Origin: a virus
Virus record (IMG/VR): IMGVR_UViG_3300028595_000003
Span: 1 to 42,045 of that record
Reading direction: 5' to 3' (one strand)
DNA: 42,045 bases
A program made the translations under genes and the position numbers. The number at the start of each line of letters is the position of its first letter. The first letter of the stretch is position 1. Below, piece after piece: positions 1 through 42,045 of the stretch. The notes below the pieces were generated by a model. It worked only from the letters and a program-made list of their open reading frames with translations. It was not told the origin of the DNA and searched no databases.

Positions 1-73
1 TGAGAAGTTTATAACATTATACGGTGCACCAAGAGACTTAGAGACTGTAGCACCTATCGATGGACTTGATTAA
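1..73 (+). CDS. Primase-helicase, C-terminal fragment (contig overlap)
   Basis: This is the last 23 codons and stop of the primase-helicase whose full copy is at 39802-41991. It appears here only because the contig ends overlap by 127 bases. It is not a broken gene. The stop codon is at 71-73, and the ribosome binding site of the next gene follows at 79-84. Confidence 0.9.
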   Translation, partial: EKFITLYGAPRDLETVAPIDGLD

Positions 74-127
74 AATACAAGGAGTAAAACATATGACACT
101 ATTAGAATACCAGAGACGACTAGAGAA
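1..127. repeat. Left copy of 127-bp terminal duplication
   Basis: Bases 1-127 are identical to 41919-42045. The duplication lies inside ordinary coding sequence: the 3' end of the primase-helicase gene and the 5' end of the next small gene. It therefore shows that the contig is circular or circularly permuted. A length of exactly 127 matches a common maximum assembly k-mer, so it is probably an assembly overlap, not a biological terminal repeat. Confidence 0.95.
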
Positions 128-6391: not shown

Positions 6392-7282
6392 ATGGAAGAG
6401 TTCGTAGAAATAGAGTTAGATGACCAAGGTCAAGTTATGCCACAAAAGATAGACAAAGTTGCATTAATAGATGCTGATACTATAGCATACATAGCTTGCC
6501 TCAATACTGAAGTTGCTGCTGAAGTACTTCCACAAGAGATGTATAGTGAAATGGAATGGGATGCTATTATCAATAACAAGCAATATGATGAAGAGCTTCA
6601 GGTTATTTATGAGACTGATGTCAATCAAGCACTATTAAAGGCTAATGATAAGCTTCAGCGTATACTAGATAAAACTGGTTGCACTAGTTATGAGTTGCAC
6701 TTCACTGGTGGCAGAGATAACTTTAGATATAAAATATTCCCTGAGTATAAAGCTAACAGAACTGGTAGAAGTCCTGCAGGTCTCTTTGAAGTAAAGAAAG
6801 CAATGTGTGAACAACTTGGTGGTACTATTCATGAGGGTTGGGAAGCTGACGATATGGTAGTATATCTCAGAAATCTACACCCTGAAAAGTATATGCTAGT
6901 GGCTATCGACAAAGACGTACTAAACTCAGTTGAAGGCACACACTTTAACTACGATGAGTCTAGTATGTATAACATTGATATGAAGTTTGTTGAAGTTAGT
7001 AAGCATACATCACTTACCTGGAGATATTTACAGACTCTTATGGGTGACAAGACAGATGGTATTATTGGCTTACACGGTATTGGTCCTAAGAAGGCTGAGA
7101 AGATTATTGATGGTAACTTTACGCACTCTGATATATGGAAAGCTGTTGTTGAAGCTTATAAGATGAAAGGCCGTACAGCTGATGAGGCACTACTAAATCT
7201 CAACTTAGTAGATATGAAGCTTCTTAAAGAAGTTGATGGTGAACTTAAAATAGTTCTTAGAACACACGAGGAAATGAAATGA
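6392..7282 (+). CDS. 5'-3' exonuclease / flap endonuclease (T7 gp6-type)
   Basis: A 296-residue PIN-like nuclease that would remove RNA primers and degrade DNA 5' ends. Visible motifs are the N-terminal A-L-I-D-A-D-T near residue 24, the arch region F-P-E-Y-K-A-N-R near 115, the acidic E-A-D-D-M (about 152-156), A-I-D-K-D (about 172-176), and the helix-3-turn-helix M-G-D-K-T-D-G-I-I-G-L-H-G-I-G-P-K-K-A (about 215-233). The length fits phage exonucleases. Its last codons overlap the DUF5664 gene (ATGA), so it is translationally coupled to the nucleotide-modification cluster. Confidence 0.93.
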   Translation: MEEFVEIELDDQGQVMPQKIDKVALIDADTIAYIACLNTEVAAEVLPQEMYSEMEWDAIINNKQYDEELQVIYETDVNQALLKANDKLQRILDKTGCTSYELHFTGGRDNFRYKIFPEYKANRTGRSPAGLFEVKKAMCEQLGGTIHEGWEADDMVVYLRNLHPEKYMLVAIDKDVLNSVEGTHFNYDESSMYNIDMKFVEVSKHTSLTWRYLQTLMGDKTDGIIGLHGIGPKKAEKIIDGNFTHSDIWKAVVEAYKMKGRTADEALLNLNLVDMKLLKEVDGELKIVLRTHEEMK

Positions 7283-7578
7283 GTAATGAGTTTGTAAAAG
7301 AGTCACTTAGTGTTAACAAGCCTATGCCTTCACTAATAGAACCTGAGTTTCTATGGAAGATGGCTGAAGTATTAGCATTTGGTGCTGCTAAATATGCTAA
7401 AGATAACTGGAAACTTTGTACTAAAGAGAATATTCATCTATATTGGGATGCTCACGATAGACACTGCTTAGCGTACAGAATGGGTGAAAAAGTAGACCCT
7501 GAAACTGGAATGTGTCACTTAGCTCATGCTTCGTGTAACTTAATGTTTATACAATATATAATGAAGGAAGAAAAATGA
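7279..7578 (+). CDS. DUF5664-type nucleotide (d)NTP phosphohydrolase
   Basis: A 99-residue protein matching the phage dATP/dGTP diphosphohydrolase N-terminal (DUF5664) pattern: L-x-F-G-A-A-K-Y-A-x-D-N-W (about 32-45), then H-D-R-H-C-L-A-Y-R-M-G-E-x-V-D-x-E-T-G-x-x-H-L-A-H-A (about 60-84). Families of this type remove canonical nucleotides in phages with altered bases. Here it is the first of four overlapping genes leading into dCMP hydroxymethylase and carbamoyltransferase. No purZ-like gene was seen, so it probably is not part of a 2-aminoadenine system. A dCTP-clearing role is possible. Substrate is inferred, not visible. Confidence 0.82.
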   Translation: MSNEFVKESLSVNKPMPSLIEPEFLWKMAEVLAFGAAKYAKDNWKLCTKENIHLYWDAHDRHCLAYRMGEKVDPETGMCHLAHASCNLMFIQYIMKEEK

Positions 7579-8258
7579 ATTCTGAAATACTAATTAATGG
7601 TCCACTAAAAGAGCTATATCTTAAGTTAAAAGCTGGAGATATAGTTGAGGTAAGAGGTAACAAAACAGTTGAACTTTTGAATGCTACTATAACATTTGAT
7701 GGTAATAGTTCTGGTATTATAACTATAAATGACAAGTTTAAAACTAGCACTGACTATATTAAACACGAAACAACTTGGTATGAGTCACAAAATCCTCATA
7801 ATGGTTATATTAAGCAATACGCACAGATCTGGTCTACTGCTTCTGATGATAATGGTATGACAAATAGTAACTATGGTTTTCTTATGTTCTCACCTCAAAA
7901 TGGATATCAATTTGATAATGTGGTTAAAGAGCTAAGAAGAGATATGTATTCTCGTAGAGCTGTTGCTTACTACACTAATCCTTTTATGCACTATGTTGGT
8001 GGTAATGACCATGTATGTACTATGTATGTTAGCTATACAGTTAGAGACAATAAGCTACAAGCAATAGTATCTATGAGAAGTAATGACATACGCTTTGGCC
8101 TTATTGGTGCTGATTTAGAATGGCAAAGGCATATGCTACATAAAATAGCTGATAAGCTTGGCTTAGAAGTGGGTAATATACATTGGCACGCTGCAAGTCT
8201 TCATTTATATGAGAGACATTTTGAACAACTTATAGAAATTTTTGAAGGAGATAAGTAA
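7575..8258 (+). CDS. Deoxycytidylate hydroxymethylase (T4 gp42-like, ThyA superfamily)
   Basis: A 227-residue member of the thymidylate synthase fold. It matches the T4 gp42 pattern more closely than true ThyA: N-S-N-Y-G at 97-101, S-R-R at 126-128, catalytic C148 (H-V-C-T), R-S-N-D-x-x-F-G at 168-175, and S-L-H-L-Y-E-R-H-F at 208-216. The ThyA Asn that reads uracil is replaced in a G-A-D-L-E-W block by D180, the counterpart of T4 D179 that sets cytosine specificity. E65 in H-E-T-T-W-Y-E-S corresponds to the T4 E60 region. It would convert dCMP to 5-hydroxymethyl-dCMP with methylene-tetrahydrofolate. It overlaps both neighbours. dUMP as substrate is the main alternative. Confidence 0.87.
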   Translation: MNSEILINGPLKELYLKLKAGDIVEVRGNKTVELLNATITFDGNSSGIITINDKFKTSTDYIKHETTWYESQNPHNGYIKQYAQIWSTASDDNGMTNSNYGFLMFSPQNGYQFDNVVKELRRDMYSRRAVAYYTNPFMHYVGGNDHVCTMYVSYTVRDNKLQAIVSMRSNDIRFGLIGADLEWQRHMLHKIADKLGLEVGNIHWHAASLHLYERHFEQLIEIFEGDK

Positions 8259-8581
8259 TGCCTACATTATCTGATTTCTATGAAGATGGCTTAAAAGATT
8301 GTAGTTGGATTAATGGTGATATCTTTACATACTGTGAAGATATGAAAGTATCTATAATAGATGATGTACTTTTAATCTATAATGGTAATGCTAACTTTAA
8401 GTATATAGATACTATCTACACTATGAAAAGAAGTAGAGGTAAAGGTTTAGCTACAAAAGTGTTAAGTAATATAAAAGGTAGAGTAGCTTTAATATGTTCG
8501 GACAAGCTATTAGATTTCTATAAAGCTGAAGGTTTTACTAATGATTTACCTTACAATATTGTAATAAAGGATAACAGATGA
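8258..8581 (+). CDS. Small GNAT-type acyltransferase
   Basis: A 107-residue protein with the GNAT acyl-CoA binding motif R-S-R-G-K-G-L-A-T at 58-66 (the R-x-x-G-x-G/A signature) and the typical late element L-L-D-F-Y-K-A-E-G-F at 84-93. It lacks the usual long N-terminal part, so it is a minimal GNAT domain. It lies between the dCMP hydroxymethylase and the carbamoyltransferase with overlapping stops and starts, which suggests it acts in the same pathway, perhaps acylating a modified base or nucleotide. The Mu Mom protein, which modifies adenine, also has a GNAT-related fold, but no Mom-specific match is visible here. Substrate is unknown. Confidence 0.75.
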   Translation: MPTLSDFYEDGLKDCSWINGDIFTYCEDMKVSIIDDVLLIYNGNANFKYIDTIYTMKRSRGKGLATKVLSNIKGRVALICSDKLLDFYKAEGFTNDLPYNIVIKDNR

Positions 8582-10044
8582 GACTTTTATTAACTCTTGG
8601 ACATAACGCATCTGCAATACTAGAAGGTAACAATACAGTCATAGTTGGGTATGAAGAAGAGAGACTATCTGGTGTAAAAGCTGATAGCTCTTTTCCAGTA
8701 CTAAGCATTAACAAAATACTTGAGTACTATCCTGAGGCTAGATATGAAGTTACAGATATTTTCATTAGTCATTGGTTCTGGTCTTTCAAAGAACTTAAAG
8801 AGACTAAGTATTATAAACCTAAATATATTAAGGCAAATTTCCCAGAAGCTAAAGTTACTTCTGTAGACTACTACAATACGCATCACGACTTACATGCTAA
8901 ATCAGTTTGGAACTTCTTAAATGGAGACAGTAGTGGGCTTACAATAGTTGCTGACGGTTTTGGTAACTTTGGGGAATGTTTGTCACTATATGTAGATGGT
9001 AAACTAAGTCATAGAAGTTATGCTATACATAGTTCACTTGGTTTAATGTATCAGTATGCTATTGGGTATCTTGGTATGAAAGAAAATCAAGATGAGTATA
9101 AACTACTAGGTTATGAGCAGCAAGTTAGCAAAGAATATAAAGCTAACTACGCTCTTAAAATAGAAGAGTTAATAGAAGTTATGACAACTAATCTTCTGGA
9201 AAAATCTGAAATGCAAAAAGGTGATATGACATATATTCTAAATGATGTTAGGTCTGATTGGTATATATTGTTTAATCAGTTCTCACCAGATAGAAGTAGA
9301 CCAGAGATTGCTTATGTAGTACAAACTATTCTTGAAGGTGTTATGTTAAACATAGTCAAACATTATGATATTAAAAACATTAAAGTATCTGGTGGCGTAT
9401 TTTACAATGTTAAACTAAACAATGCTTTATTAAGATTTAGTGATAAGTTTGAAGCTAACCCACTTGCTGGTGACCAAGGTTGTGCTTTAGGTTTTACTAA
9501 TGTTAGATACCAAGACTTATTCTGGGGTAGACGTGAAATTAATAGTTACTCTTCTGATAAACTAATTAGTGATATAAAAACTAATGGGTATGCTGAAGTT
9601 ATGCAAGGTTGGATGGAGTTTGGTCCTAGAGCTTTATGTAATACCACTACGTTAGCAAGACCTACTTTAGAAATGGTTGAGCTAATTAATACTATCAATG
9701 GTCGTGATACTGTAATGCCTATGGCACCAGTAGTAACTAAAAAGTATGCTGAGAAACACTTCAGAGATATTGATAAAGTTACTAGGTCTAAGTACTATAT
9801 GGTTATAGCATTTGACTATATTAGCGTTGATGAAACCACAAGAGGTGCTGCTCACTATGATAGTGATAGAGATGTGTATACTGGTCGTATTCAAATTAGC
9901 AATATGCCTTTTATAGATGATATACTAAAGAAGTTCGGTGGTATTCTCATTAACACTTCACTAAATGCTCACGGTCAGCCAATATTATACGATTCGAATA
10001 ATTATAATATTATGAGACGTATCCAGAGTAATTTTAAGCGCTAA
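8578..10044 (+). CDS. NodU/TobZ-type O-carbamoyltransferase
   Basis: A 488-residue enzyme expected to transfer a carbamoyl group from carbamoyl phosphate, via carbamoyl-AMP, onto a hydroxyl. Family signatures in order are G-H-N-A-S-A (8-13), E-E-E-R-L (26-30), H-H-D-L-H (102-106), D-G-F-G (126-129), S-S-L-G-L-M-Y (152-158), E-Y-K-L-L-G (173-178), S-G-G-V-F-Y-N-V (271-278), G-D-Q-G-C-A-L-G (298-305), M-E-F-G-P-R-A-L (346-353) and N-T-S-L-N (459-463). The family is best known from antibiotic and Nod-factor synthesis. Phage members next to cytosine-modifying enzymes carbamoylate hydroxymethylcytosine. ATGA overlap couples it to the GNAT gene. It is the last gene of the block, followed by a palindrome. 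Confidence 0.93.
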   Translation: MRLLLTLGHNASAILEGNNTVIVGYEEERLSGVKADSSFPVLSINKILEYYPEARYEVTDIFISHWFWSFKELKETKYYKPKYIKANFPEAKVTSVDYYNTHHDLHAKSVWNFLNGDSSGLTIVADGFGNFGECLSLYVDGKLSHRSYAIHSSLGLMYQYAIGYLGMKENQDEYKLLGYEQQVSKEYKANYALKIEELIEVMTTNLLEKSEMQKGDMTYILNDVRSDWYILFNQFSPDRSRPEIAYVVQTILEGVMLNIVKHYDIKNIKVSGGVFYNVKLNNALLRFSDKFEANPLAGDQGCALGFTNVRYQDLFWGRREINSYSSDKLISDIKTNGYAEVMQGWMEFGPRALCNTTTLARPTLEMVELINTINGRDTVMPMAPVVTKKYAEKHFRDIDKVTRSKYYMVIAFDYISVDETTRGAAHYDSDRDVYTGRIQISNMPFIDDILKKFGGILINTSLNAHGQPILYDSNNYNIMRRIQSNFKR

Positions 10045-10168: not shown

Positions 10169-10390
10169 ATGATAACAATAAAAGAATTTGTTAATGGTAT
10201 GGTAGATGATGGAGCTAGTAGTTATGAAATAGCAGAGTTACTAGGTGTATCTGTTAGTATGGTTAGTGGTTATAAGTTACATCAATATAACCCAAGCTTA
10301 GAAGTTGCAAAGAACGTGTACAAGAAAACTAATGTTGTGTTACACCCATTTGCTGAACAGTCACTAAAATTAGAATTAGGAATAGAATAA
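10169..10390 (+). CDS. Small helix-turn-helix DNA-binding protein
   Basis: A 73-residue protein. Residues about 17-38 read S-S-Y-E-I-A-E-L-L-G-V-S-V-S-M-V-S-G-Y-K, a textbook HTH of the XRE/Cro type (E-I-A-x-x-L-G-V-S, then a recognition helix). GAGGAG precedes ATG 10169, just after a promoter. As the first gene of its transcription unit it may autoregulate or time the last plus-strand genes. Its stop overlaps the MazG gene start. There is no ligand or dimerisation domain. Confidence 0.82.
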   Translation: MITIKEFVNGMVDDGASSYEIAELLGVSVSMVSGYKLHQYNPSLEVAKNVYKKTNVVLHPFAEQSLKLELGIE

Positions 10391-10743
10391 TGTATAACTT
10401 AATAGAACTAAATGAGAAGATATTACAATGGTCACACGATAGAGGTATTCTTAGAAATGGAAATACAATAACACAATGTTTAAAACTTGGTAGCGAGTTT
10501 GGAGAGTTACAAGACAATCTTGCTAAGAATAAAAGTATTAAAGACGACATAGGCGATATGCTAGTTGTATTAACTAACATAGCTTTCTTAGAAGGTTATA
10601 CATTAGAAGAGTGTGGTAATCACGCATACAATGACATTAAAGACCGTAAAGGTTTTCTAAATGCTAATGGTACTTTTATTAAGTCTACTGACCCTAGATA
10701 TGAACAGCTACTAATGGAGTTCAATAATGATAAGCAAGATTAA
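10390..10743 (+). CDS. MazG-like nucleotide pyrophosphohydrolase
   Basis: A 117-residue all-alpha protein with the MazG-type metal-binding pattern: E-F-G-E-L at about 37-41 and K-D-D-I-G-D-M-L-V-V-L at about 51-61 (E-x-x-E then D-D-x-x-D). These enzymes cleave NTPs or dNTPs to monophosphate and pyrophosphate. The superfamily includes dCTP/dUTP pyrophosphatases. In a phage with a dCMP hydroxymethylase, a dCTP-clearing role (as for T4 gp56) is attractive but unproven. An alternative is lowering host (p)ppGpp, as proposed for other phage MazG proteins. Confidence 0.8.
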   Translation: MYNLIELNEKILQWSHDRGILRNGNTITQCLKLGSEFGELQDNLAKNKSIKDDIGDMLVVLTNIAFLEGYTLEECGNHAYNDIKDRKGFLNANGTFIKSTDPRYEQLLMEFNNDKQD

Positions 10744-11608: not shown

Positions 11609-11795
11609 ACAAGAGCTTTTATATGGTGATAATAAGCCATTAAAAGTACCAGACGATGTTATAGCTAACAGAGTTAGTATAATGAACTGTGAACTATCTT
11701 ACGAGCTTAACAAAAGCTATAAAGATAGAGATTATATTAGAGTTAATAAACTAATAAAAGGTATAAGATTTTGGGAGACAATAAATGAAATGTGA
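11586..11795 (+). CDS. Small hypothetical protein (69 aa)
   Basis: A 69-residue protein overlapping the ligase gene end by 23 bases and the ThyX gene start by 11. ATG 11586 is preferred, with AGGTG at 11575-11579; a GTG at 11577 would add three residues. It is helical, with many Lys, Glu and Tyr, and no recognised motif. The tight overlaps indicate a real coupled gene. Function is unknown. Confidence 0.6.
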   Translation: MTKTYQTKQELLYGDNKPLKVPDDVIANRVSIMNCELSYELNKSYKDRDYIRVNKLIKGIRFWETINEM

Positions 11796-12339
11796 ACTAT
11801 TACATACAAATGGGCTAGAGTTTAGTGATAATGCTATAGGTCTATGCTATGACAAAGGTTGTTACACAGACGTTGAGAAACGAGATAATCGTATTAAGAA
11901 AGTTGCTTTAAAACACAAACACTCATCTACTATAGAGTTTACTAACTTTATCTTTCAAATAGAAGCATCAACTAAAGTACTTTTAGAAATGACTAGACAT
12001 AGAATGGCTAATTATGCTTGCAAGTCAAGTAGATTTACTCTGAACAAAGGTGAGGTAGTTTTTGAAAGCACTGGTGACACAGAGGTTGACTTTTTACTTA
12101 GTGAGTGGAAGTTAATAATAGAGTCACAGATCAGAAAGGGTAAGTCGAATGAGATTACCTCTCTTATGTTGCCTCAAGTATATCAGTATAGATGGCAAGT
12201 TCAATTTAATGCTAGAAGTCTTAAAAACTTCTTAGAACTTCGTAGAGCTAAATCAGCTCATTTCTTAATTAGAGAAGTTGCAGAAGCTATGTACGCTTCA
12301 GTACCAGAGGATATGAAATATTTATTCGAGGAGGACTAA
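11785..12339 (+). CDS. thyX: Flavin-dependent thymidylate synthase ThyX
   Basis: A 184-residue protein with the ThyX motif R-H-R-x7-S at residues 71-81 and the surrounding elements H-S-S-T-I-E at 46-51, K-S-S-R-F-T-L at 80-86 and N-A-R-S-L-K-N-F-L-E-L-R at 142-153. It would make dTMP from dUMP using FAD, NADPH and methylene-tetrahydrofolate. The H-S-S-T-x-E and K-S-S-R-x-T-L blocks and the Y-L-F-E-x near the end match the Helicobacter/Campylobacter branch as I recall it. It is shorter than most bacterial ThyX. It supplies thymidylate while the other synthase-fold protein (7575-8258) makes hydroxymethyl-dCMP. Confidence 0.9.
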   Translation: MKCELLHTNGLEFSDNAIGLCYDKGCYTDVEKRDNRIKKVALKHKHSSTIEFTNFIFQIEASTKVLLEMTRHRMANYACKSSRFTLNKGEVVFESTGDTEVDFLLSEWKLIIESQIRKGKSNEITSLMLPQVYQYRWQVQFNARSLKNFLELRRAKSAHFLIREVAEAMYASVPEDMKYLFEED

Positions 12340-39801: not shown

Positions 39802-41991
39802 ATGCTTATTAGTTACACAACGCTCTCAACGAACAAAGAGCATATTCTCAATGACCAAGAGACTAAGAAAGCTATAATGCCTACACTCTATGCTAAGACG
39901 AATTGGAGGACAAACACGCAGCAAGACACTCTAGCCAATGTCATATCTTTCCAAGCACTAATAGTAATCTCAGGGCCTGACTTATTAGTTATTGACTTCG
40001 ACGACAACGAAGCATTCAAACGTGCACAACTGTTTAACGAGTCACTAACTTCAAAACACAAGTGCAAATTTATAGTTAAGTCATCACGTAGAGGAGGTCA
40101 CTTTTACTTCCAACATAATCCTGATATAGAAGCACCTACAGGGCACACGAAGCAGAACATAGTTGATTATTTAGAGGGTGATAAACACAACATAATTGCC
40201 CCAACAAGTTTTGACCCTGGTAAGACGATATTAGAGCCATACGATACGAACCTTACGCAGTTTAACACAGCCTGGGAAGTGTTTGTGACTCATATGGTAC
40301 TACAGAACTTACCTGAGAAAGCATATAACATAGTACTAAGGTCTAGCCAGAGCCACTCTGATGATAATGTTAGTTTCGTTAAGCAGTACCTCAGTAATCT
40401 GATAACTGATGCTGATTTTAATGCTTATTATAATATACCAACTCCAATACCACCTGGTCAGAGTAACGAGTACTATAAAAATATCTCAACGAGACTTGCG
40501 TGTGATGAGACGGTATCATTTGAAGATTTTAAGTCGGCAATGGAGAAATTTAACGCCTTTCACAAACGTAAGGAGCAGGGAGAGTTATATAGTTGTCACA
40601 TTAATTCAATGACTAACAACGGGTTATGGGCTTACGACGCTGATAAGAAAGTTAATAGTTTTGAGGTATCTCACAAGCTCTATAAAACGCCAATCAGTGT
40701 ATACTATGATATAGACTCAGGAGAGTACTTACTTAGTTACTCAGATCGGGACGGTCAGCCACATCTGCACTGTATTCCAGCACGTGCGAAGTATCTTGAG
40801 CTCATTGAAAAGCTCTCGAGGTTGACCCCGCAGCAACGGAAGACTGATGCGATACCTGCTGTGCATACAGTGACTGACTATTCACTATCGTATGGTTATA
40901 ACACGTCAACAGGCGTTTTTAACAAGGCGGTGACTGGTCCAGAGCTTGCAGCATTTTACGGTACTAAGCCTGATGGTTATACAGTGCCAACGCGTCTCCT
41001 TGATGTGTGTAAGCATATGTGGGGTGAGGAGTATGAGTATCTCCTAGCGTCCACTAAGTATAGGTATAAACACTTTAGGTTTTCACCAGTTGTAACGTTC
41101 TTACAAGGTACTGAAGGTAGTGGTAAAGACTTAACAGTTTGGCTCTTGACTAGGCCGTTCCCAGTACAGTCCCAGCTGTTAGATGCCAGTCTCTTGAATG
41201 ATAAGCACTCGAATTGGCAGACAGAACCAAATGTAATAGTATCTGAAGTTGGTGACTGGCGTGCTATGGATAGAGATAGTCTCCTAGCAAAGGTTAAGAC
41301 AATAGCAGGTTCTAACGGAATAGTAACATTTCGTGGTATGAATAAGACTGCGATAACACAACCATCACTTATTAAGATATGGGTGACTGGTAACAAGTGG
41401 GTGAAGTTGCATACCGATCCGCTGTCACAACGTAGGATACACCCTGTATATATGCCACGACCTCTTAATAAAGAGCTTGGTGGGCCGTATTCAGAAGGTG
41501 AGCTGAGAAGTATATTCTCTCACGAGAGTGTACTGAACTTTTATTATTGGCTTGGGAATGAGTCAGACAGTATACCAGAACTAACACTAGACCAATACAT
41601 AGTACCAACTAGTAGGCACTCGTCAGAGAGTTATGAGATATACCAAGAGAATACTCAGACGATATCTGATACAGTATCACAGTTAATATATTCGAGGGAC
41701 TATAACAAGTTCCAGAAGGCACTTAACTTGTTACACGTTACACTAGATGAGCTTACCTGGAAATATAATGGTAAGACTAACAACTTAGTTATTGCTGTAG
41801 CACGTCTCAAAGATGTTCTCGGTTCTAAAAACTCTGATGATATAGTTATGAAGACTATTGACAGACTAACATCTGAAAAGGAGGGTAACAAAAAGTTGAG
41901 GTTTGATAGAGACTTCCCTGAGAAGTTTATAACATTATACGGTGCACCAAGAGACTTAGAGACTGTAGCACCTATCGATGGACTTGATTAA
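39802..41991 (+). CDS. AEP-type primase-helicase
   Basis: A 729-residue fusion. The N-terminal archaeo-eukaryotic primase domain has the catalytic V-I-D-F-D-D (63-68), the S-S-R-R-G-G-H-F-Y-F block (94-103), and D-Y-L-E-G-D-K-H-N-I-I-A-P (122-134). The C-terminal SF3-like helicase domain has Walker A G-T-E-G-S-G-K-D (about 436-443), Walker B near 476 (V-I-V-S-E-V) and I-W-V-T-G-N near 523 (sensor). ATG 39802, with AAGGA seven bases ahead, is preferred over ATG 39784, which overlaps the HTH gene. It would prime and unwind at the fork. Confidence 0.9.
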   Translation: MLISYTTLSTNKEHILNDQETKKAIMPTLYAKTNWRTNTQQDTLANVISFQALIVISGPDLLVIDFDDNEAFKRAQLFNESLTSKHKCKFIVKSSRRGGHFYFQHNPDIEAPTGHTKQNIVDYLEGDKHNIIAPTSFDPGKTILEPYDTNLTQFNTAWEVFVTHMVLQNLPEKAYNIVLRSSQSHSDDNVSFVKQYLSNLITDADFNAYYNIPTPIPPGQSNEYYKNISTRLACDETVSFEDFKSAMEKFNAFHKRKEQGELYSCHINSMTNNGLWAYDADKKVNSFEVSHKLYKTPISVYYDIDSGEYLLSYSDRDGQPHLHCIPARAKYLELIEKLSRLTPQQRKTDAIPAVHTVTDYSLSYGYNTSTGVFNKAVTGPELAAFYGTKPDGYTVPTRLLDVCKHMWGEEYEYLLASTKYRYKHFRFSPVVTFLQGTEGSGKDLTVWLLTRPFPVQSQLLDASLLNDKHSNWQTEPNVIVSEVGDWRAMDRDSLLAKVKTIAGSNGIVTFRGMNKTAITQPSLIKIWVTGNKWVKLHTDPLSQRRIHPVYMPRPLNKELGGPYSEGELRSIFSHESVLNFYYWLGNESDSIPELTLDQYIVPTSRHSSESYEIYQENTQTISDTVSQLIYSRDYNKFQKALNLLHVTLDELTWKYNGKTNNLVIAVARLKDVLGSKNSDDIVMKTIDRLTSEKEGNKKLRFDRDFPEKFITLYGAPRDLETVAPIDGLD

Positions 41992-42045
41992 AATACAAGG
42001 AGTAAAACATATGACACTATTAGAATACCAGAGACGACTAGAGAA
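41919..42045. repeat. Right copy of 127-bp terminal duplication
   Basis: Identical to bases 1-127. Merging the two copies gives a unique genome length of 41,918 bp and joins the primase-helicase gene (39802-41991) directly to the small gene at 93-272. Confidence 0.95.
42011..42045 (+). CDS. 5' fragment of the 59-aa gene (contig overlap)
   Basis: The start of the small gene whose complete copy is at 93-272. It is cut by the contig end, not by mutation. Its ribosome binding site AAGGAG is at 41997-42002. Confidence 0.9.
   Translation, partial: MTLLEYQRRLE

Follow-up and report, generated by a model that had tools for sequence, protein, structure and literature searches.

In phage T4, the dCMP hydroxymethylase gp42 feeds an enzyme that modifies the hydroxymethyl group, a glucosyltransferase. 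TET-associated phage carbamoyltransferases (CTs) perform the same final chemistry on 5-hydroxymethylcytosine (5hmC) as that considered here; there, the hydroxymethyl group is provided by TET oxidation of 5mC in DNA.

In the MetaGPA study, a purified phage CT was found by LC-MS to convert 5hmC in single-stranded DNA, and 5hmdCTP, to 5-carbamoyloxymethylcytosine without TET; 5hmdUTP was not a substrate (Yang et al., 2021; PMC8670742). The CT lay beside a D177-type thymidylate synthase (TS) homologue in modified phage contigs, and the two domains occurred together solely where contigs had been selected for modified cytosine (PMC8670742).

The locus analyzed here lies in the IMG/VR record IMGVR_UViG_3300028595_000003, referred to as the window (the whole stretch of 42,045 nucleotides). 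Its gene cluster very probably encodes a cytosine hypermodification pathway, in which dCMP hydroxymethylation would be followed by carbamoylation. Like the MetaGPA locus, it combines an Asp177-type TS homologue with a CT of the same clade, and has a pyrophosphohydrolase and a DNA ligase (PF01068, PF14743) nearby. It differs in the phage, in the gene order, in the length of the CT (488 versus 554 aa) and in a small GNAT gene, which is absent from the text of the MetaGPA neighbourhood analysis (PMC8670742). The predicted modifier is a CT, whereas that of T4 is a glucosyltransferase; no glucosyltransferase was seen among the scanned proteins. A search of the genome for TET/JBP dioxygenases gave no match, a weak negative, as the control genomes gave no match either.

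Related loci occur in Xanthomonas phage Xp15, Acinetobacter phage MD-2021a and Bacteroides phage BF503P1, in which a CT is followed by a hydroxymethylase within a few kb; these have no GNAT and another gene order, and in Xp15 and MD-2021a a PRA-PH pyrophosphohydrolase comes directly after the CT. In the same two phages a protein of about 275 aa without a significant Pfam match is encoded directly before the CT (Xp15, L001:14159-14989; MD-2021a, L003:14169-14984). In BF503P1 a P-loop AAA_28 protein, a candidate 5-hydroxymethyl-dCMP kinase, is encoded directly after it (L002:13818-14471).

Gene order and genome

The features of the locus are as follows:

6392-7282, exonuclease (ORF call)
7279-7578, plus strand, DUF5664 / dATP-dGTP diphosphohydrolase N-terminal family protein, 99 aa (PF18909)
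7575-8258, plus strand, predicted dCMP hydroxymethylase, T4 gp42-like, 227 aa (1b49 match, residue table)
8258-8581, plus strand, predicted minimal GNAT acyltransferase, 107 aa (RGKGLA loop and Tyr88, profile, model)
8578-10044, plus strand, predicted 5hmC carbamoyltransferase, shortened TobZ/NodU fold, 488 aa (Pfam, tree, model)
10390-10743, plus strand, MazG-like nucleotide pyrophosphohydrolase, candidate dCTP remover (family match and synteny; substrate predicted)
11785-12339, plus strand, ThyX thymidylate synthase (PF02511, 5e-27)

The preliminary description had placed four overlapping genes at 7279-10044, and the ORFs and their head-to-tail overlaps were found exactly there. From the exonuclease to the CT, successive genes overlap by 4, 4, 1 and 4 bases (ATGA, ATGA, TAATG and ATGA). 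Its family assignments were upheld by Pfam (PF18909, 4e-25; thymidylate synthase PF00303, 4e-18; carbamoyltransferase PF16861, 2e-19, and PF02543, 4e-15) and, for the GNAT, by a profile built from three sequences together with a structure model. The order DUF5664-hydroxymethylase-GNAT-CT, the recurrence of which had been named there as a check, was found again in the phage contigs L004 and L005 and is therefore not due to chance.

The DUF5664 gene is kept at the same place in L004, L005 and a further contig, L044, and its product is probably a dNTP-pool enzyme. The MazG-like gene is syntenic in L004, L044 and the contig L065. After the ligase, ThyX is found in the window and L004, and a dCMP deaminase-like gene in L044 (7688-8092) and L065, an alternative dTMP supply.

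A direct repeat of 127 bases is present at the ends of the window (1-127 and 41919-42045), and the 42-kb record is therefore probably a complete genome. The repeat may be a genuine terminal redundancy or the assembly overlap of a circular map. Structural genes, among them those for the portal, major head protein and terminase, are found on the opposite strand. The product of 441-911 belongs to the pyrimidine-dimer DNA glycosylase family (PF03013), of the T4 endonuclease V type. At the DNA level, the first 25 kb had no megablast match among phage records. Palindrome frequencies, considered because avoidance could point to modification, were uninformative: observed/expected was 0.88-0.90 in the window, the other loci gave similar values, and the comparison lacked a proper control.

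Hydroxymethylase and carbamoyltransferase

The solved structure closest to the window hydroxymethylase was T4 dCMP hydroxymethylase (1b49, E=2e-30), followed by the CMP hydroxymethylase MilA, with thymidylate synthases further down. In the residue table, the window protein has an Asp where E. coli TS has N177, the residue governing the choice of pyrimidine, and the catalytic Cys followed by Thr at 146-147. Both features are common to T4 gp42, MilA and the other CT-linked TS homologues; Asn177 and Cys-His stand in their place in E. coli ThyA and in the true TS of phage MD-2021a. The E. coli ThyA sequence that served as a ruler was checked only by its known residues. The hydroxymethylases of the window, L004 and L005 have one residue inserted immediately ahead of the key Asp, so that the match at position 177 depends on gap placement; HMMER, which aligned window Asp180 to T4 Asp179, and MAFFT concurred. 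The assignment to the dCMP type made in the preliminary description thus held, and the prediction that the TS-fold gene encodes a dCMP hydroxymethylase, the Asp selecting dCMP, is well supported.

A role as thymidylate synthase was considered for the same gene and ruled out by the Asp177 and Cys-Thr residues together with the ThyX gene of this genome; with dTMP supplied by ThyX, that task need not fall to the TS-fold gene at 7575.

Over 467 columns, the window CT and the MetaGPA enzyme are 40% identical. The two fall in one clade of 31 CTs (support 100/100), set on a long stem apart from GdmN/NovN and the cyanophage CTs, and within it in a subclade of eight (96/83). At the signature positions W408, G421 and R423 (TobZ numbering, transferred through the GdmN/NovN chain numbering, TobZ itself being absent from the alignment display), the window CT has Val, Cys and Thr and the MetaGPA enzyme Ile, Cys and Thr; the S-SSM7 control has Trp, Gly and Arg. 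H102, H106, D126 and D299, which we take from TobZ to be the metal site, are invariant in the alignment, and the protein has the two-domain O-carbamoyltransferase fold. Its model aligned over the full length to GdmN (with carbamoyl-adenylate/AMP) and TobZ (Z 30-36, 450-460 residues); the fold is also common to NovN. The clade, identity and signature residues bear out the earlier proposal of a 5hmC modifier, and the window protein is predicted, with good support, to be a 5hmC carbamoyltransferase.

A TS-family hydroxymethylase homologue was found nearby in 37 of the 40 loci with this CT type (fetched stretches; 3 cultured phage records and 37 IMG/VR contigs, with near-duplicates among them). 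The exceptions (L032, L038 and L039) are contig-end fragments truncated in or near the CT. The homologue was also present in three of three further loci, on contigs of metagenome-assembled genomes, as against none of six loci with the distant type of CT, some phage members of which (cyanophages, jumbo phages) adjoin glycosyltransferases or oxygenases. The CT-hydroxymethylase partnership is therefore general, as already published.

In many CT loci the CT is followed at a short distance by the gene for a second TS-fold protein, in which the catalytic Glu58 is replaced by Leu, Met or Ile and Asp177 and the Cys are retained (L002:14456-15262, L021:8425-9318, L030:8457-9245, L031:8395-9204 and L033:8399-9217; also L018-L020). 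These proteins are possibly inactive partners or catalyze a different reaction. In L009 (5219-6004), L010, L011, L013 and L029 (4970-6004), the sole TS-like gene found beside the CT has Gln58, and Glu for Asp169; in L009-L013 this gene overlaps the CT by 4 bases and also has Lys or Glu for Tyr209.

Predicted pathway

As read from its residues, the hydroxymethylase would convert dCMP to 5-hydroxymethyl-dCMP, which would be raised to 5hmdCTP via a kinase; no dNMP kinase for 5-hydroxymethyl-dCMP was recognised. MazG-like and perhaps DUF5664 pyrophosphohydrolases would remove dCTP. With carbamoyl phosphate and ATP, the CT would transfer a carbamoyl group, via carbamoyl-adenylate, onto the hydroxymethyl oxygen to give 5-carbamoyloxymethylcytosine. 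This step may take place on 5hmdCTP or on DNA; the in vitro proof belongs to the 40% identical enzyme rather than to the window CT. The modified cytosine would protect virion DNA from host restriction.

Phages also have TS-fold hydroxymethylases for dUMP, and the insertion lies beside the specificity residue, as would suit an enzyme acting on dUMP whose product, hydroxymethyl-deoxyuridine, is carbamoylated to a thymine-type modification. Such a route is very unlikely, given Asp in place of Asn at 177, Cys-Thr at 146-147 and the inactivity of the MetaGPA enzyme on 5hmdUTP (PMC8670742). Slightly less probable still is a CT with no connection to DNA, of NodU-like or antibiotic type, whose substrate would be a small molecule or a surface sugar. 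The fold shared with TobZ, GdmN and NovN and the gene neighbours of some distant phage CTs speak for this reading; the separate clade (100/100) on its long stem, the signature residues and the near-constant hydroxymethylase linkage speak against it.

The cytosine pathway put forward in the preliminary description is thus very likely, yet already known: the nucleotide-level, TET-free route proposed there is contained in PMC8670742 (CT with D177-type TS homologue, assays on 5hmC-DNA and 5hmdCTP). The GNAT is the remaining new element.

The GNAT between hydroxymethylase and carbamoyltransferase

Three phages have kept this GNAT between the hydroxymethylase and the CT. The window sequence alone fell below the Pfam cut-off (best 0.009), and the profile of the three sequences reached solved GNATs with E=8.5e-6. 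Foldseek, run with the AlphaFold model (mean pLDDT 77), gave a list headed entirely by GNATs, with weak E-values (best 0.012). The acetyl-CoA loop RGKGLA is intact (motif R/Q-x-x-G-x-A/G) and Tyr88 is present. Thirty-five positions are invariant across the window, L004 and L005, and dN/dS relative to L004 was about 0.34, indicating purifying selection, with dS near saturation.

Among all CT loci profiled, the GNAT was found in the window, L004 and L005 only, each time between hydroxymethylase and CT; the profile gave no match in any other CT locus. No relatives were found in phage records, nor any beyond L004 and L005 in IMG/VR (single-sequence and alignment queries). L044 has a hydroxymethylase 78% identical to that of the window, with syntenic flanks, followed directly by an HTH gene; neither CT nor GNAT was found on this 29.8-kb contig, a genome fragment. 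In L065, a 4-kb genome fragment, a CT 63% identical to that of the window comes directly after the hydroxymethylase, without the GNAT. L065 (QMKU01000198.1) is the nearest relative outside IMG/VR and was binned in an Epsilonproteobacteria MAG, a weak hint of the host group. The loci form a nested series of hydroxymethylase alone (L044), with CT (L065), and with GNAT as well (window, L004 and L005). The nesting of the GNAT within the CT distribution argues that it is an accessory outside the core pathway, accompanying the CT in a single branch and apparently dispensable for the hydroxymethylation and carbamoylation steps.

As to its target, the analysis leans strongly neither to the base, which it would acylate, nor to a protein, for instance a host defence factor, which it would acetylate. 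The GNAT may possibly be an anti-defence or host-takeover protein acetyltransferase that travels with the CT by chance. It is present with the CT and absent where the CT is absent, and AcrVA5, a minimal GNAT anti-CRISPR (95 aa) of similar size and fold, was among the Foldseek matches, with the top target-normalised TM-score among the matches listed (0.56). The AcrVA5 match is nevertheless weak (E=0.027, TM about 0.5) and one of many to GNATs, and translational coupling to pathway enzymes would be unusual for a stand-alone anti-defence gene.

It is rather unlikely that the GNAT acylates the hydroxymethylated or carbamoylated base, which would make the final nucleotide an acylated derivative beyond 5-carbamoyloxymethylcytosine. 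In three phages it lies between the two pathway genes, in the window it overlaps both, and its distribution is nested from L044 through L065 to the window, L004 and L005; these features are consistent with such a role. A carbamate nitrogen is, however, a poor acyl acceptor, L065 and all other CT loci manage without a GNAT, and no demonstrated cytosine precedent was found; the literature searched for GNATs in hypermodified phages yielded nothing usable.

Through this locus, 5-carbamoyloxymethylcytosine, a proven, little-studied chemistry, is placed in a phage genome that is apparently complete at 42 kb, and cultured phages with related loci (Xp15, Acinetobacter and Bacteroides phages) are open to direct testing. 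The natural series of hydroxymethylase, hydroxymethylase with CT, and both with GNAT offers a clean comparison for the role of the GNAT. If the GNAT does acylate the base, the phages that have it would carry an undescribed two-step hypermodified cytosine.
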